A stretch of 37,024 nucleotides of DNA from Natronococcus sp. A-GB1. GTDB taxonomy: Archaea > Halobacteriota > Halobacteria > Halobacteriales > Natrialbaceae. Below are positions 8,383-14,363 of this stretch, piece by piece (the stretch's first letter is position 1; each line of letters begins with the position of its first letter). The stretch covers positions 1 to 37,024 of the forward strand of contig NZ_JARUKW010000028.1 in the NCBI RefSeq assembly GCF_029688845.1, given 5' to 3'. The notes beneath the pieces were generated by a model, which saw nothing but the letters and a program-made list of their open reading frames with translations, was not told the origin of the DNA and did not search any database. The translations under genes were made by a program, and so were the position numbers.

Positions 8383-8763
8383 CTATAGAAACATGAACCG
8401 CACCCGCCGCACGCCGTCGAAATCCTTCAACCGGTAGACGAGTCGCCTGACTCGCTCGGCCTCGCCCTCGACGAACACCGTCTCGAGACACCAGTCGCCC
8501 TGGTGGGCGTGGCTGGTCGAGACGATTGCGTCCTGGTAGTCGTGCTGGACGTCGTGGAGCCGCTCGATAACGCTTTCGTGTTCGTAGTCGAAGACGACGA
8601 CCCCGGTTACGGACCCCGTCGTCGTCTCGAGGGTCCGGTGGCGCTCGACGTACTCGGCCATCGCCTCGCGAACGGCCCGCGAGCGTGAGTCGATCCCCTC
8701 GGCCCGCCAGGTCGCGTCGAACTCCTCGAGGATCTCGTCGGGAACGGCGAGACTGGTGCGCAT
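8383..8763 (-). CDS. nikR: NikR-like nickel-responsive ribbon-helix-helix repressor
   Basis: This 126-residue protein begins MRTSLAVPDEILEEFD, a ribbon-helix-helix start, and has the SRSRAVREAMAEYVE helix pair. The C-terminal ACT-like domain keeps the nickel-site pattern: H74, H85, H87 and C92 in STSHAHQGDWCLE correspond to His76/His87/His89/Cys95 of E. coli NikR, with the last loop one residue shorter. It would dimerise and tetramerise and bind an inverted repeat upstream of nickel uptake genes when Ni is high. No nickel transporter or urease/hydrogenase genes are adjacent; the nearest metal genes are cbtBA 11 kb away. The ATG at 8763 is the family start, and it is divergent from the SHOCT gene. 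A different divalent metal is possible. Confidence 0.85.
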   Translation of the reverse strand: MRTSLAVPDEILEEFDATWRAEGIDSRSRAVREAMAEYVERHRTLETTTGSVTGVVVFDYEHESVIERLHDVQHDYQDAIVSTSHAHQGDWCLETVFVEGEAERVRRLVYRLKDFDGVRRVRFMFL

Positions 8764-8861
8764 GGTCGCTCCACGGTCGCCGGCTCCATTACCGCTTCTC
8801 TTCGAGGCGACCGCCTCGACCGTCTCGTGCTCGGCCGATCCGCCGCCGTCTCCCCCTACAG

Positions 8862-8867
8862 TTATTT
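8862..8867 (+). promoter_or_regulatory. TATA-like element of the SHOCT-domain gene
   Basis: TTATTT lies 23-28 nt before the ATG at 8890, in the divergent region shared with the NikR-like gene. This fits a leaderless transcript and decides the start. Confidence 0.5.
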
Positions 8868-8889
8868 CCGTCACCGACCTAGTTCGGGT

Positions 8890-9255
8890 ATGGGCAGCGA
8901 CGGCGGCTACAGTCTCACCGAGATCTTCGCCATCAAGTTCGTGCTGGCCGATATCGTTATCATCGCCGCCCTGCTGTTCGCCGGGCCGATCTACGCCGTC
9001 GCGATCACGGTTCTGTTGGTCATCAGCGTCTTTCTCGTCTGGTATCTCACCGAACGGGTTGGAAGCGACGACGCCGAGTCCGACCCCGTCCGCGAACCGG
9101 TCGACCCCGTCACCGAGCTACAGAACCGCTACGCAGCCGGCGAGCTCTCGGAGGCGGAGTTCGAGACGAAACTCGAGCAGCTGCTCGACTCGAACGAGCG
9201 GGCCGAGCGGGCGGGTGTCGAAACCAGGGAACTCTCCCTCGAGCGTGAGCGGTAG
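8890..9255 (+). CDS. Small membrane protein with C-terminal SHOCT domain
   Basis: This 121-residue protein has two closely spaced hydrophobic helices at ~18-58 (VLADIVIIAALLFAGPIYAV and TVLLVISVFLVWYL) and an acidic linker. A C-terminal SHOCT motif follows at ~77-108 (TELQNRYAAGELSEAEFE). SHOCT is a short oligomerisation-type domain found at the end of many prokaryotic membrane proteins; the protein's role is unknown. The ATG at 8890 has a TATA-like element at leaderless distance. It is divergent from the NikR-like gene and could share its regulatory region. Confidence 0.8.
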   Translation: MGSDGGYSLTEIFAIKFVLADIVIIAALLFAGPIYAVAITVLLVISVFLVWYLTERVGSDDAESDPVREPVDPVTELQNRYAAGELSEAEFETKLEQLLDSNERAERAGVETRELSLERER

Positions 9256-9399
9256 GGAGCCAGATTTAGGGTGGTCCGACGGCACTGTTCCAGACGAGAT
9301 GGACGCCGCCGAGGACACGAATCGAATCGAGCGACGGTGCCCTCGAGTCCGACGGTCGAACCCTCGCACACCGGAGTATACCGCGGAGGTGGGGATCGC

Positions 9400-10590
9400 G
9401 TGACCGACATCTCGATCGCCGACGCTGTCGATGTCTATCTCGAGCGGAAGGCGCTCGGGAATCCGGACGGCTCCGGGGCGGGAACCTACGCCGCGAACGC
9501 CGAGTCCGTCCTTCGACGGTGGGTCGACTGGCTCGTCGCCGAACACGACCTTCAGTCGATCTCGGCGCTCGGAACCGACCAGATGCGGGCCTATGCCGAT
9601 GTGCTCCGGGCCCGAACCGACGAAGGCAGCTACGCGGCCTCGACGGCTCGAACCTACTACGCGGTCGTTCGGGCCTTCCTCTCGTGGTGCGTTCGGAGCG
9701 GGCTCCGCGACTCGAACCCCGCCGCGGCCGAGGACGTCACGGCCGCGCTGCCGCCGACCGTCGACGGCGACGCCGGCTCCAAACCGGGCTGGACCGCCGA
9801 CCGACGCCACGTCCTCGAGCGCCACGTCCGCGAGCGCGCGATCGCCGCGACGAGCGAGGACCGCGACCGCGAAACTCGTCGCGACCGCCTACGGGAGTAC
9901 GCCCTGATCGCGCTCTTTCTCTACTCGGACGTGCGGGGTAGCGAGCTGTTCCGGGTCCCCCGGGACGACCGACGAACGGGTGCGATCTGGGACGACGTCG
10001 ACTTCTACACCGGGACGATCCGCGTCCTCGGTCGCTCCCAGCGCCTCGAGGAGGTGGTGCTGCCGGCCGCGGTTCGAACCCCGCTACGGCGGTACCGAGT
10101 CGCGCTCGATCCGCCGTCGAACGACTGGCCGCTGTTCCCGACGCGTCACGCTCCCTCGATCGCCCGCCGAGTCCGGGAGGTGCTCCGGGAACGGGGCCAC
10201 GACGAGGCGGCGATCGACACTCTGCTCGCGGACGCGACGGCGACGGAACTGGCCCGCGATCGATCGATCGCTCCGCCGGCGATCACTACCGAGGGTGCCC
10301 GATCGGTGCTCAAACGACTGTGTCGGGAAGCGGGACTCAAGGTCGACGGCGACTCCCTGACGCCGCGGGGTGCCAGGGACGACAGTCTGGACGACGGCCG
10401 ATACCGCCGCGAGGCGTCGTCCTCGAGTCCGGCCCTGCGGGCTTCGGTCATGGAACGGTCGATCGTGGTGTCGGCGTCTCGGGAGGGGCCCGGATCGATT
10501 ATCGATCTCCCAGCTCGGGTCGTCCGCAGCGAGGAACGTAACGCGGACGGCGAACCCGGACCCGGCTCCGAAGGCGATCCGAAGCCGTAA
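9400..10590 (+). CDS. Tyrosine-recombinase/integrase-family protein with degenerate active site
   Basis: This 396-residue protein has an N-terminal SAM-like DNA-binding domain (~3-110) and a catalytic-fold domain (~130-350) of the haloarchaeal integrase type. The first catalytic Arg is present (R179 in YSDVRGSELFRVP). The beta-hairpin Lys is Arg (GRSQ 211-214), and the His of the HxxR box is Arg (TPRGAR 321-326, keeping the Arg). The LRH motif is LRASV (346-350), and no Tyr nucleophile follows; that region reads MERSIVV. The frame stays open with high GC at third positions, so it looks maintained rather than freshly broken. It probably binds DNA without strand exchange. The GTG at 9400 is chosen because GGAGGTG lies 8-9 nt upstream. 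There is no adjacent tRNA, att repeat or phage gene. Confidence 0.8.
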   Translation: MTDISIADAVDVYLERKALGNPDGSGAGTYAANAESVLRRWVDWLVAEHDLQSISALGTDQMRAYADVLRARTDEGSYAASTARTYYAVVRAFLSWCVRSGLRDSNPAAAEDVTAALPPTVDGDAGSKPGWTADRRHVLERHVRERAIAATSEDRDRETRRDRLREYALIALFLYSDVRGSELFRVPRDDRRTGAIWDDVDFYTGTIRVLGRSQRLEEVVLPAAVRTPLRRYRVALDPPSNDWPLFPTRHAPSIARRVREVLRERGHDEAAIDTLLADATATELARDRSIAPPAITTEGARSVLKRLCREAGLKVDGDSLTPRGARDDSLDDGRYRREASSSSPALRASVMERSIVVSASREGPGSIIDLPARVVRSEERNADGEPGPGSEGDPKP

Positions 10591-10961: not shown

Positions 10962-12437
10962 TTAGGCGACCAGTCGCTCGACGGACGTGCTGATCGCGTC
11001 CTGGATCTCCGCGGAGGCGAACCCGAGGGTCAGACCGAGCGCGGCTCCGATGACGATGGCGATCAACATCCCCTTGGTGATCGCGGCCGGATCCACGTCC
11101 TTCCCGTCGAAGGGGTGGAAGTAGATCCGGTTGATGAAGGGCAGGATGTACCCCGCAGAGAGCAGCGTGCTGCCGAGGACGAGCAGGGAGACGATCCACA
11201 TCCCCTCCTCGAAGGCCCCCAGCGCGATGTACCACTTGCCGGCGAACCCGACCGTCGGTGGCAGACCGATCATCGCGATCCCGAGCACGGCGAAGGCCCC
11301 GGCCATGACCGGTGCGCGCTTCGCGACGCCGGCGTACTCCTCGAGCGTGCGAATGCCGCCGAAGCGGAGCGCGAACATCCCGGCTAGTACGAACAGCGAG
11401 GCCTTGACGATGCCGTGGCCGAAGATCTGCAGGATGGACCCGAAGACCGCAGTGTCGTTCGCGATCGCGATGCCGACGAAGATGAGTCCGAACTGCGAGA
11501 CCGTCGAGTAGGCCAGTACGAGCTTGATGTGGTCCTGCAGGAGCGCAAAGAAGCTCCCGGCGAAGAGGCTAAAGAGCGCCGCGACCAGCAGCATGTTGCT
11601 GATCGCCGGGTTGGCTGTCAGGAAGTCGAGCGTGTAGACGGTAAAGAGCACGCGGACGAAGGCGTACATCGCGACGGCGGGCACGAGCGCCGAGATGACG
11701 GCGCTGATCCCGTCCGGCGCGGAGGCGTGGGCGTCCGCCAGCCAGGTGTGGACCGGGAACAGCGCGATCTTGATCGCGAGTCCAACTGCGATCAGGATGA
11801 ACGCGGCGACCACCACGGGGTCGGTGTAGCCGACGTCGGCCAGCAGCTCCGGCAGCAGTCGCATGGTCAGCGTCCCGGTCGAGGCGAGTATCAGCGCGAC
11901 GCCGAGCAGGTAGAAGCCGGCACCGACGGTGCCGACCAGCAGGTACTTGAACGCCGCGTAGGTCGACCACCGGTACTTGGAGGACGAAACCAGGGCGTAC
12001 GAGGAGATTGCCATGATCTCGAGGAAGACGTACATGTTGAACAGGTCGCCGGTGAGCAGGATGCCGAGCATTCCGCCGACCAGCAGGAGGAAGCCGGCGT
12101 AGAAGGCGTTCCCCCGCGGGCCGTCTACGCGCGTATAGATCAACACGCCGAGACAGACCAGCAACACGAGCAGCATGACGATGACCGAGAACTCGTCGGC
12201 AAACAGCTCGATTCCGACTGGGACCTCGACGCCGCCGAGTTCGTGGCTCAGCTGTCGATCGTCGGTTTGCGTGAGCATCCACGCGAGCGCGGCCGCCATC
12301 GCGAGCGTCGCGGTGACGATCGCGCTTGCGAACGCCCAGCCAACGTTCTTCCATCGGACGGTCGCAGCGATCGGCACCGAGGCCGTGATCAGCGGCAGGA
12401 GGACGATGATGGCCAGCAGCCAGCTGTACTCCTCCAT
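10962..12437 (-). CDS. mnhD: Mrp/Mnh antiporter subunit D paralogue (NuoL/M-type), third copy
   Basis: This 491-residue membrane protein has about 14 hydrophobic helices and is the usual MrpD size. Antiporter-type proton-channel markers are present: the Glu helix in NMYVFLEIMAISSYALVS, the Lys/His helix in LAIKIALFPVHTWLADAHAS, and the discontinuous-helix motif near FGHGIVKASLFVLAGM. YAGVAKRAPVMAGAF and GLPPTVGFAGKWYIALG complete the pattern. It is the last gene of the operon. The ATG at 12437 is preceded by GGAGGTGAGC, which lies inside the 30-codon micro-ORF just upstream, so translation of the two may be coupled. In the Mrp complex such subunits carry Na+/H+ exchange across the cytoplasmic membrane. 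Confidence 0.9.
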   Translation of the reverse strand: MEEYSWLLAIIVLLPLITASVPIAATVRWKNVGWAFASAIVTATLAMAAALAWMLTQTDDRQLSHELGGVEVPVGIELFADEFSVIVMLLVLLVCLGVLIYTRVDGPRGNAFYAGFLLLVGGMLGILLTGDLFNMYVFLEIMAISSYALVSSSKYRWSTYAAFKYLLVGTVGAGFYLLGVALILASTGTLTMRLLPELLADVGYTDPVVVAAFILIAVGLAIKIALFPVHTWLADAHASAPDGISAVISALVPAVAMYAFVRVLFTVYTLDFLTANPAISNMLLVAALFSLFAGSFFALLQDHIKLVLAYSTVSQFGLIFVGIAIANDTAVFGSILQIFGHGIVKASLFVLAGMFALRFGGIRTLEEYAGVAKRAPVMAGAFAVLGIAMIGLPPTVGFAGKWYIALGAFEEGMWIVSLLVLGSTLLSAGYILPFINRIYFHPFDGKDVDPAAITKGMLIAIVIGAALGLTLGFASAEIQDAISTSVERLVA

Positions 12438-12533: not shown

Positions 12534-14363
12534 TTAGATGAAGAGTGCGACAGCGAGTGCGAGTGTGAGCACGCCTGCGGCCACGTAAACCGTCAGGCCG
12601 ACCCCGAGTTTGGCGCCGGTCTTCCCGGGCGTGTCCTCGTACCGGCGGTCGTAGGCGTCTCGCCAGCGGTCAGGAATCGTTCCTCGAATGGCCGTGTTCG
12701 GGTCGTGGACGGCGCCGACGAGCCGCCAGCCGGTGCCGACGACCAGGTCGTCGACCCGGTTGTAGATCGCGCCGATGCCACCCGACAGTCCGCGCGTGCC
12801 GTAGAACGTCGCCGGATCGTAGATCTGGTCGACGTCGAACCCGCCGTGAAGCCGGTCCATGATCGGCTTGCCGAGGACGAAGATCGCGATCCCCCCGGCG
12901 GCGAGATAGCTGGCTTTGAACAGATGGGCGGACGAGTAGGGGTTGAGATCGAGCTCGCCGGACATCGGCAGGTACGGAACCAGTGCCTGATAGTAGACGC
13001 CGAAGACGATACAGGCGGCGGCGACGGCACCGGAGACGACCGCGTGACCGAGGTTCGCGTCGGTCGTCTCGATCGGGTCGCCGTCCAGGAAGGCGTAGTA
13101 GCCGAACTTGATGAACGACGCGAACGTGCCCATGCTGCCGATCACGATCATCCAGAACAGGACGTCGATCGAGAAGTCACCGAAGATGACGAGGTCGGAC
13201 GCGAAGTCGTAGTCGGCGGCGTCCATCACCATTCCCTTGCTGATGAAGCCGTTGAAGCCGGGGACGCCGCTAATCGACATCGCGCCGATGAGGAAGACGA
13301 CCAGCGCGATCGGAGCGGAGGTACCGACTGCTCCGAAGTTGTCGAGTCGGTTCTCCTTCAGCTGGAGGATCAGGATGCCGGCGGCCATGAACAGCAGCCC
13401 CTTGTAGAGGATGTGGTTGAACAGGTGGGCGAACGCGCCGGCGATCCCGAGCGCGGAGCCGACACCGATGCCAGCGAGCATGATCCCGACCTGGGACTGG
13501 ATGTGGTAGGACAGCAGCCGTCGCATGTCCTTCTGTGCCAGCGCGAAGCTCGCCCCGTAGATCGCCATCCCGGCACCGACGAACGCGAGCACGACGCTCC
13601 CGTCGGGGAACGCACGGTAGGCGGCGTAGACGGCGGTCTTCGTGGTGTAGCAGGCGAGGAAGACCGACGTGGCGACGTGGGGCTGTGGGTAGGTGTCGGG
13701 CAGCCAGCTGTGGAGCCCGATCATCGCCGTGTTGACGCCGATCCCGACGCCGGCGAGGACAGCGGCCAGCGAAACCGTGCTCCCGGCGACCTCGATCGGA
13801 ACGCCACCGATCCCCGTCCCGTCGAAGTGGAGGGCGGTCGGGCTCGGATCGACTGCGAACAGGTAGAGCACGACCCCGGCCAGCAGGAGGCTTCCGCCGA
13901 TACCGTGTGCGAGCGCGTAGCGATAGCCCGCCCGCACCGCGGTCCCGCCGGAGAGCCAGACGAAGACGGTGCTCGTGATGGCCATCACTTCCCAGCCGAC
14001 GACCAGACCGAGCCAGTCGCCAACTGTGACTGTCCAGATCGACGGTGCGACGTAGGCCAGTCCCCACAGGAGGTGGCGGTTGTCGGTGTCGGCGAAGTAT
14101 GCCCATGCGACCGCGGCAGCGCCGAATCCGCCGAAGATGATCACCATCAGCCTCGAGAAGTCGTCGACTGCCACGACGATTATCTCGAGACCCATGAAGG
14201 TGTACGTCGGACCCACACCATCGGGGACGAGCAGCGCCCAGGCGACGACGGCCAGCAACGAGGCGACGCTGACGCCGTGGGCGATTCGCCGAGAGGCGAA
14301 CGGTACGATCAGGGCTGCAACGGCGACGATCAGCGCCGGTGGAATCGAGAGTAGTTCGTTCAT
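12534..14363 (-). CDS. Mrp/Mnh antiporter large subunit (NuoL/M-type), second copy
   Basis: This 609-residue protein is the longest antiporter-type subunit here. It has about 14-15 hydrophobic segments plus a long C-terminal tail (~470-580) that is mostly soluble (VDQIYDPATFYGTRG, then DPNTAIRGTIPDRWRDAYDR) before a final helix. Proton-channel residues are seen in DWLGLVVGWEVMAITST (Glu) and IGLHSWLPDTYPQPHVA, followed by TTKTAVYAAY (Lys), with AHLFNHILYKGLLFMAAG later. Length and tail recall NuoL/MrpA-N more than classic MrpD, so it may stand in for the N-terminal MrpA half that this operon lacks as a separate large gene. Its ATG overlaps the stop of the preceding subunit by 1 nt (TAATG). 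Confidence 0.87.
   Translation of the reverse strand: MNELLSIPPALIVAVAALIVPFASRRIAHGVSVASLLAVVAWALLVPDGVGPTYTFMGLEIIVVAVDDFSRLMVIIFGGFGAAAVAWAYFADTDNRHLLWGLAYVAPSIWTVTVGDWLGLVVGWEVMAITSTVFVWLSGGTAVRAGYRYALAHGIGGSLLLAGVVLYLFAVDPSPTALHFDGTGIGGVPIEVAGSTVSLAAVLAGVGIGVNTAMIGLHSWLPDTYPQPHVATSVFLACYTTKTAVYAAYRAFPDGSVVLAFVGAGMAIYGASFALAQKDMRRLLSYHIQSQVGIMLAGIGVGSALGIAGAFAHLFNHILYKGLLFMAAGILILQLKENRLDNFGAVGTSAPIALVVFLIGAMSISGVPGFNGFISKGMVMDAADYDFASDLVIFGDFSIDVLFWMIVIGSMGTFASFIKFGYYAFLDGDPIETTDANLGHAVVSGAVAAACIVFGVYYQALVPYLPMSGELDLNPYSSAHLFKASYLAAGGIAIFVLGKPIMDRLHGGFDVDQIYDPATFYGTRGLSGGIGAIYNRVDDLVVGTGWRLVGAVHDPNTAIRGTIPDRWRDAYDRRYEDTPGKTGAKLGVGLTVYVAAGVLTLALAVALFI

Follow-up and report, generated by a model that had tools for sequence, protein, structure and literature searches.

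The closest described precedent for an integrase that no longer recombines DNA is MrpR (YopR), the master repressor of the Bacillus prophage SPbeta (PDB 8A0A), which lost recombination and was shown by experiment to be a DNA-binding repressor (PMC10516654). SroF, the repressor of phage phi3T (PDB 9rd5, 9rgl), is a DNA-binding repressor according to its title, and is a phage protein that has an antirepressor. The archaeal recombinase XerA (PDB 5hxy, 4a8e) consists of a core-binding and a catalytic domain and has an active site and a C-terminal helix (PMC3646895). The simple tyrosine recombinases of Halobacteria (Arch1 and Arch2) likewise have two domains and no arm-binding domain, and are described as recombinases, their catalytic domain being marked by a short insertion (PMC8138268).

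Here, we analyzed a 37,024-nucleotide stretch of contig NZ_JARUKW010000028.1 from the haloarchaeon Natronococcus sp. A-GB1 (the window), in which a forward-strand gene (positions 9400 to 10590) encodes a 396-residue protein of the tyrosine recombinase fold that appears to be catalytically dead. Our preferred reading, to which we assign a probability of about 0.62, is that the protein is a domesticated pseudo-recombinase: it would bind DNA, leave it uncut, and act as a transcription regulator or an architectural protein. Like MrpR, it joins a core-binding and a catalytic domain in a recombinase fold, here predicted, with a putative loss of recombination read from the missing residues. The two differ in the residues given up: MrpR keeps the Tyr and Lys and lost the first catalytic Arg (Arg-I), whereas the archaeal family keeps Arg-I and lost the Tyr and the box-III His. 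Moreover, MrpR is phage-encoded, whereas the dead family is archaeal, occupies one locus, and has a control region of its own, composed of a conserved 17-mer and a short upstream open reading frame (ORF). In contrast to SroF, no antirepressor is known for it, and the active site and C-terminal helix of XerA are absent or remodeled. The family shares its halobacterial origin, its two-domain layout, and the absence of an arm-binding domain with Arch1 and Arch2.

No match to the window protein or to its nearest intact relative (L118) was found in a phage collection, and viral contigs scanned with A1, A2, and an intact neighbor yielded no confirmed relative. A search of the open-licence literature returned no description of such a dead-integrase family.

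Domain architecture and predicted structure

Translation confirmed that the frame is open, as the sequence-only reading had it: 396 codons run uninterrupted from a GTG at 9400 to a TAA at 10590. Genes of this family bear the annotation "recombinase XerD" or "site-specific integrase." Pfam detected integrase domains in the whole window protein at sub-threshold level only, including Phage_int_SAM_1 (E = 0.0017, 19 bits, below the 22.3 cut-off) in the core-binding, SAM-like domain (residues 8 to 116; positions 9421 to 9747, forward strand), which was delimited by Pfam and by comparison of the predicted model with structure 3nrw. Matches were below cut-off in five of six family members scanned, the sixth (L021) being just at it, and the NCBIfam XerC model matched the window protein far under its cut-off (E = 1.2e-9, 38 bits). 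The only solved relative by sequence was XerD, at E = 0.3. In the Natrialba loci L014 and L017 to L019, the usual start position has neither ATG nor GTG in the stretch examined; L017 and L019 carry in-frame, low-complexity Asp/Thr-rich sequence upstream, and their N-terminus may differ.

A first structural model, for which 24 rows were used, reached a pLDDT of only 59.9, and the addition of three rows (two other integrases and one partial ortholog) gave a 27-row model with a pLDDT of 73.9. Residues 1 to 316 of this model are mostly confident. They include the core of the catalytic domain (residues 160 to 316, with R179 and R212; positions 9877 to 10347, forward strand), which was delimited by pN/pS, conservation, and pLDDT, the last reaching 79 to 94 per ten-residue block up to residue 310. 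The remodeled C-terminus (residues 317 to 396; positions 10348 to 10587, forward strand), recognized by its sequence motifs, is mostly below pLDDT 50.

Foldseek comparisons gave low TM-scores and high rmsd, which we read as shifted domains; VIA-align values were used instead, limited to the candidates that Foldseek supplied. The highest score was for XerA (Z 14.8, rmsd 16.6, 233 residues), followed by the N-terminal domain of a Haloarcula integrase (3nrw; Z 14.6, rmsd 1.9, 104 residues), XerH (Z 14.0, rmsd 6.5, 269 residues), lambda Int (Z 13.6, rmsd 5.2, 244 residues), Cre (Z 13.0, rmsd 5.0, 251 residues), and, in a structural likeness to a repressor, SroF (Z 11.2, rmsd 6.2, 240 residues). 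The window protein and its kin are thus predicted to adopt the tyrosine recombinase (Xer/phage integrase) fold, with SAM-like core-binding and catalytic domains. MrpR scored Z 9.4 (rmsd 15.7, 227 residues), a level that can mean a common helical arrangement, and we therefore take it as a functional precedent and claim no kinship.

Loss of catalytic residues across orthologs

In the window protein, Arg-I is R179 (VRGSEL) and the hairpin Lys position is occupied by R212 (GRSQ). Box II reads R323-G-A-R326, with R323 at the His position and the box-II Arg (R326) in place, while box III reads LRA, with A348 at the His position, and the Tyr position is S358. These are the residues that the sequence-only reading had picked out, and each assignment was correct. 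After removal of identical sequences, 97 orthologs and 21 other integrases were available for comparison. Arg-I is kept in all 97 orthologs. None has the box-III His (neither His nor Trp stands there in any of them), none has the nucleophilic Tyr at its position, and 35 have no Tyr anywhere after box II. The box-II His position holds Arg in 80/97 and His in two (L093 and L100), and the box-II Arg is present in 86. Residues 317 to 396 as a whole comprise the RxxR form of box II, the motif RREA..LRxS..ExSI.V where box-III His and Tyr are gone, and a variable tail. Among the 21 other integrases, by comparison, Arg-I and Lys occur in all, box-II His and box-II Arg in 20 each, box-III His in 19, and Tyr in 18; the missing residues are gaps where the end of a locus cuts the row, plus one protein with a divergent C-terminus (L134). 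Judged from these alignments, the complete residue set of an active tyrosine recombinase (Tyr, box-III His or Trp, and Arg-I, Lys, and box-II His and Arg) is lacking throughout the dead clade.

Aligning homologs by their C-terminal signature, as the earlier reading had proposed, bore out the missing His and Tyr in 97/97. Its change of the hairpin Lys to Arg proved not to be general: the position holds Lys in 68/97, Arg in 19, Thr in nine, and Ser in one, and the Arg, as a minority state, does not belong to the signature of the family. Close homologs with a normal H-R-H-Y set, or with compensating frameshifts, were sought among the orthologs and none were found. Recent decay by frameshift near positions 10370 to 10450 was rejected, as the C-terminus aligns in the same frame across orthologs and none of the 97 is intact.

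Selection on the retained domains

The suggested dN/dS comparison was also run and, between the window gene and that of Natronococcus amylolyticus, gave dN 0.022 and dS 0.135. Pooled over 1,715 pairs, which are not independent of one another, pN/pS was 0.34 in the N-terminal domain and 0.26 in the catalytic core; outside these domains it was 0.66 in the interdomain linker, 0.62 in box II and its linker, 0.49 in the C-terminal motif, and 0.89 in the tail. These ratios indicate that the two core domains are under purifying selection. The mean frequency of the commonest residue in the dead rows was 0.80 and 0.85 in the core parts (the latter in the catalytic core) and 0.68 in the C-terminal active-site part (residues 317 to 358), whereas in the 21 other integrases the C-terminal part was the most conserved (0.77 versus 0.63 and 0.65). 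Only the order of the parts is comparable, because the other integrases are more diverse, and that order is reversed in the dead rows, as expected when constraint leaves an active site.

Distribution and phylogeny

With each species represented by a single genome, a first scan recovered 24 loci, each assigned by its name or title to Natrialbaceae or one of its genera. Across the class, orthologs were detected at E = 2.1e-140 or better in 93 of 391 genomes, every one of them in the family of the window (Natrialbaceae), and hence in 93 of the 101 sampled Natrialbaceae genomes; 101 genomes of the family matched the profile, and no member of the family was among the 20 of 82 unmatched genomes that were listed. 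The eight sampled family genomes without the gene belong to two genera (six to g19 and two to g22), and their best matches are other integrases that have the Tyr (L140 and L141 were read).

In a tree of rpoB' DNA from 30 genomes, including two from each of these genera, g19 and g22 form one clade (support 100/98), which branches early within the family and is sister to a clade (100/100) that unites 22 of the 23 gene-bearing rows. The remaining row, G077 (L173), has two rpoB' matches on one contig, of which the one retrieved is long-branched and of odd composition; for these reasons, we distrust its placement. This topology would fit a single gain of the integrase in the stem of the gene-bearing genera, the alternative being loss in g19 and g22. 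A tree of the integrases themselves, built by a quick method on the columns before box II from the 97 dead and 21 other haloarchaeal rows, separated all dead rows from the others (SH-aLRT 100). The nearest row to the dead clade is the intact L118 (SH-aLRT 95), with the exact sister less sure because long branches were flagged.

Genomic context

Two Mrp/NDH-type antiporter subunit genes lie downstream of the integrase in the window and converge on it from the reverse strand, at positions 10962 to 12437 (Pfam Proton_antipo_M, 197.5 bits), a conserved neighbor, and 12534 to 14363 (126.2 bits). Genes of this antiporter cluster occur near the dead integrase at 89 of the 95 loci compared, each with roughly 1.5 to 5 kb of flank; 133 of 135 such genes are downstream, and 133 are encoded on the opposite strand. 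They are absent from the examined flanks in six of the 95 loci, in one of which (G104) they follow 4 kb further on (L162). Since related genes also exist in six of the eight family genomes without the dead integrase, and given the six loci without them, we regard the link as only positional. A family-2 glycosyltransferase gene (one member confirmed by Pfam) intervenes in 19 loci from some of the genera.

The genes upstream vary between loci. In the window, a SHOCT-domain protein (positions 8827 to 9255, forward strand; Pfam SHOCT, E = 4e-8) lies just 5' of the integrase; it belongs to the Natronococcus lineage and falls outside the conserved unit. A NikR-type regulator gene (8383 to 8874) stands opposite the SHOCT gene and, in the loci compared, is near the integrase only in Natronococcus kin. 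A second integrase was observed 5' of the dead one in L006 (2304 to 3509), L053 (2 to 1057), L004 (1 to 930), L161 (491 to 1735), and L166 (16119 to 17390). The copy in L006 has a full C-terminus with Tyr, and those in L053 and L004 are cut by the end of the locus.

No tRNA gene was detected in the window, in agreement with the earlier reading, or in 11 further ortholog loci, and a PHROGs scan of five window neighbors gave one transporter-type and one repressor-type match and no virion or integration family. The dead gene is carried on plasmids of 160 to 240 kb in some genera, on larger plasmids in two records, and on the chromosome in two Natrinema records. In Haloterrigena turkmenica (HTUR_RS24285 on pHTUR04, L166) and Halostagnicola larsenii (a plasmid, L167), it accompanies the Mrp operon on 172-kb replicons. 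pHTUR04 looks like a chromid, as it carries genes for ribonucleotide reductase, shikimate kinase, chorismate mutase, and dihydroorotate dehydrogenase.

A conserved control region

The dead integrase is preceded by a control region, a new finding of this analysis, that combines a promoter-like 17-mer with an overlapping upstream ORF. In the window, the promoter-like element CAGATTTAGGG (positions 9261 to 9271, forward strand), half of the conserved 17-mer, lies about 30 nt 5' of the ATG of a 34-codon ORF (9299 to 9403, forward strand), whose TGA overlaps the integrase GTG (as GTGA). The strong ribosome site claimed earlier, GGAGGTG, is present at 9385 to 9391 on the forward strand, before the integrase start and inside the upstream ORF. 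Upstream 10-mers are common to up to 16 genus labels, compared with four at most in simple shuffles, though these labels overcount because a genus may appear under a name and also under a code. The complete 17-mer, ACCGAAACACAGATTTA, is exact in 18 of 96 upstream rows and present with at most two mismatches in 57, and looks like an archaeal BRE plus TATA element. The window and its near kin retain only CAGATTTAGG of it; in Natronococcus, the SHOCT gene ends directly at the putative integrase promoter, where the element lacks its ACCGAAACAC half.

The 17-mer, relaxed by one mismatch and one free base, was used to scan the 101 family genomes. This returned 52 places in 50 genomes, whereas a reversed control pattern returned one place. 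Of these, 43 lie directly 5' of the dead integrase (40 at ortholog places by coordinates, and three, in G397, G396, and G392, checked individually) and nine lie elsewhere. Four of the nine represent one shared place in genus g6 (L203 to L206), whose copies of the dead gene are without the 17-mer, and the remaining five look unrelated. At one of the g6 places (G208, L205), a small frame 21 bases past the 17-mer resembles, by eye, an RNase P Rpp21-type protein. With so few places elsewhere, four of them shared, a family-wide 17-mer regulon was rejected. At this one-mismatch limit, 51 of the 101 genomes, including that of the window, have no copy of the element, and for this reason and the nine places elsewhere, it may be an ordinary core promoter.

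The ATG after the 17-mer most often follows 28 nt on and, in the rows read, starts a short ORF of 14 to 56 codons, the peptide sequence of which is unconserved and the TGA of which overlaps the integrase start. The integrase starts with GTGA or ATGA in 85 of 93 genomes. A short ORF in the overlapping frame precedes it in 72 of these 85 genomes (20 of 24 genera) and in none in either other frame, a count that serves as a test of frame because one ATG serves one frame only. A stricter ORF pattern held in 59 of 66. Among 18 other integrase loci, four had such a start and none the upstream ORF. In addition, a run of at least six letters of the extended Shine-Dalgarno sequence GGAGGTGATC precedes 67 of 88 ortholog starts, compared with 0 of 88 in a control stretch. 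The natural reading of this arrangement would be coupled translation by termination and reinitiation. Autoregulation at the long, well-kept promoter element is a speculative addition.

Alternative explanations

The protein could be a non-catalytic partner or accessory of an active tyrosine recombinase that pairs with it on one half-site and shapes the synapse. Recombinases act as dimers and tetramers that exchange C-terminal helices (PMC3646895), and intact integrases are present in many gene-bearing genomes; a second integrase gene is close by in L004, L006, L053, L161, and pHTUR04. However, a second integrase stands in only 3 of 135 loci (flanks of 1.5 to 5 kb), the one active family tested does not track the dead gene, and the C-terminus, where exchange would take place, is the least conserved part of the protein, so that we consider a partner role unlikely. 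This family, the L139 group, was tried as a partner or replacement and dropped, as its presence does not follow the dead gene: at E = 1e-60 it was detected in 185 of the 391 genomes of the class, often more than one copy in each, and its 36 hosts among the 101 family genomes include all six of g19, which are without the dead gene. In L139 to L143, L145, and L146, box III reads LDN for LRH, with box II and the Tyr kept in the copies read.

We consider it just as improbable that the protein no longer engages DNA at all and instead works as a scaffold or a domain for binding other proteins. In favor of this, the core-binding domain is acidic (median net charge -5 in dead rows versus 0 in other rows), and the motif ExSI.V is kept at the former active site. 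Against it, the catalytic core is more basic than in other integrases (median +1, window +6, versus -3 in 19 other rows), and R226 and R230 are fixed in dead rows, at positions where Ala or Glu is found in about half of the other rows. Arg-I, which in tyrosine recombinases contacts the scissile phosphate, is kept throughout. Tighter DNA binding is not favored, because the core-binding domain is more acidic in the dead rows.

A dying mobile-element integrase with a frame open by chance would account for the descent and the lost catalytic residues, but it is very improbable given purifying selection on both core domains, presence in 93/101 genomes, one clade, and a fixed place and control region, where patchy presence, broken frames, and a dN/dS near 1 were expected and not seen. 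DNA cutting through another nucleophile or in trans, to which the retained Arg-I (97/97), box-II Arg (86/97), and Lys (68/97) would lend themselves, is equally hard to credit with no Tyr in place in any ortholog, none past box II in 35/97, and Lys or box-II Arg lost in part of the clade.

Proposed function and significance

The dead integrase therefore probably performs a new, non-cutting job on DNA, as set out in our preferred reading of a domesticated pseudo-recombinase. The sequence-only reading had proposed a repurposed DNA-binding protein rather than a mobile-element leftover. Its first part is well supported by the single all-dead clade (97/97), purifying selection on the core, the fixed place, and the lack of intact or frameshifted close homologs, while DNA binding itself is suggested by the retained core-binding and catalytic-core folds and Arg-I. 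The integrase gene would have arrived next to the Mrp antiporter operon on the stem lineage of the gene-bearing Natrialbaceae genera, and the observed losses of the box-III His and Tyr nucleophile would, if we infer a single gain correctly, predate the radiation of that group. Afterwards, the gene would have been retained through the selection observed on its core. Based on the model and conservation, the two-domain clamp that closes around a half-site was probably retained, and the protein most likely still recognizes a specific DNA site without cutting it. The conserved core promoter would start a nearly leaderless transcript opening with the short ORF, and ribosomes that terminate at its overlapping TGA would then initiate the integrase at GTGA, helped by the strong Shine-Dalgarno sequence. 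In its fullest form, this would be a vertically inherited family of archaeal transcription factors derived from a dead integrase, autoregulated and translated by termination and reinitiation via an upstream ORF kept in place and frame and free in sequence, which we consider possible but doubtful.

If true, our preferred reading would make this gene a clear example from archaea of an integrase that became a cellular protein, gave up cutting, and persisted in most of a family. The two orthologs that retain the box-II His, together with the intact relative L118, may allow the order of residue loss to be read. The recombinase and integrase names given to these genes in annotation are misleading when dimer resolution systems or mobile elements are searched for, and the upstream ORF layout offers 72 natural examples for the study of coupled translation in haloarchaea.
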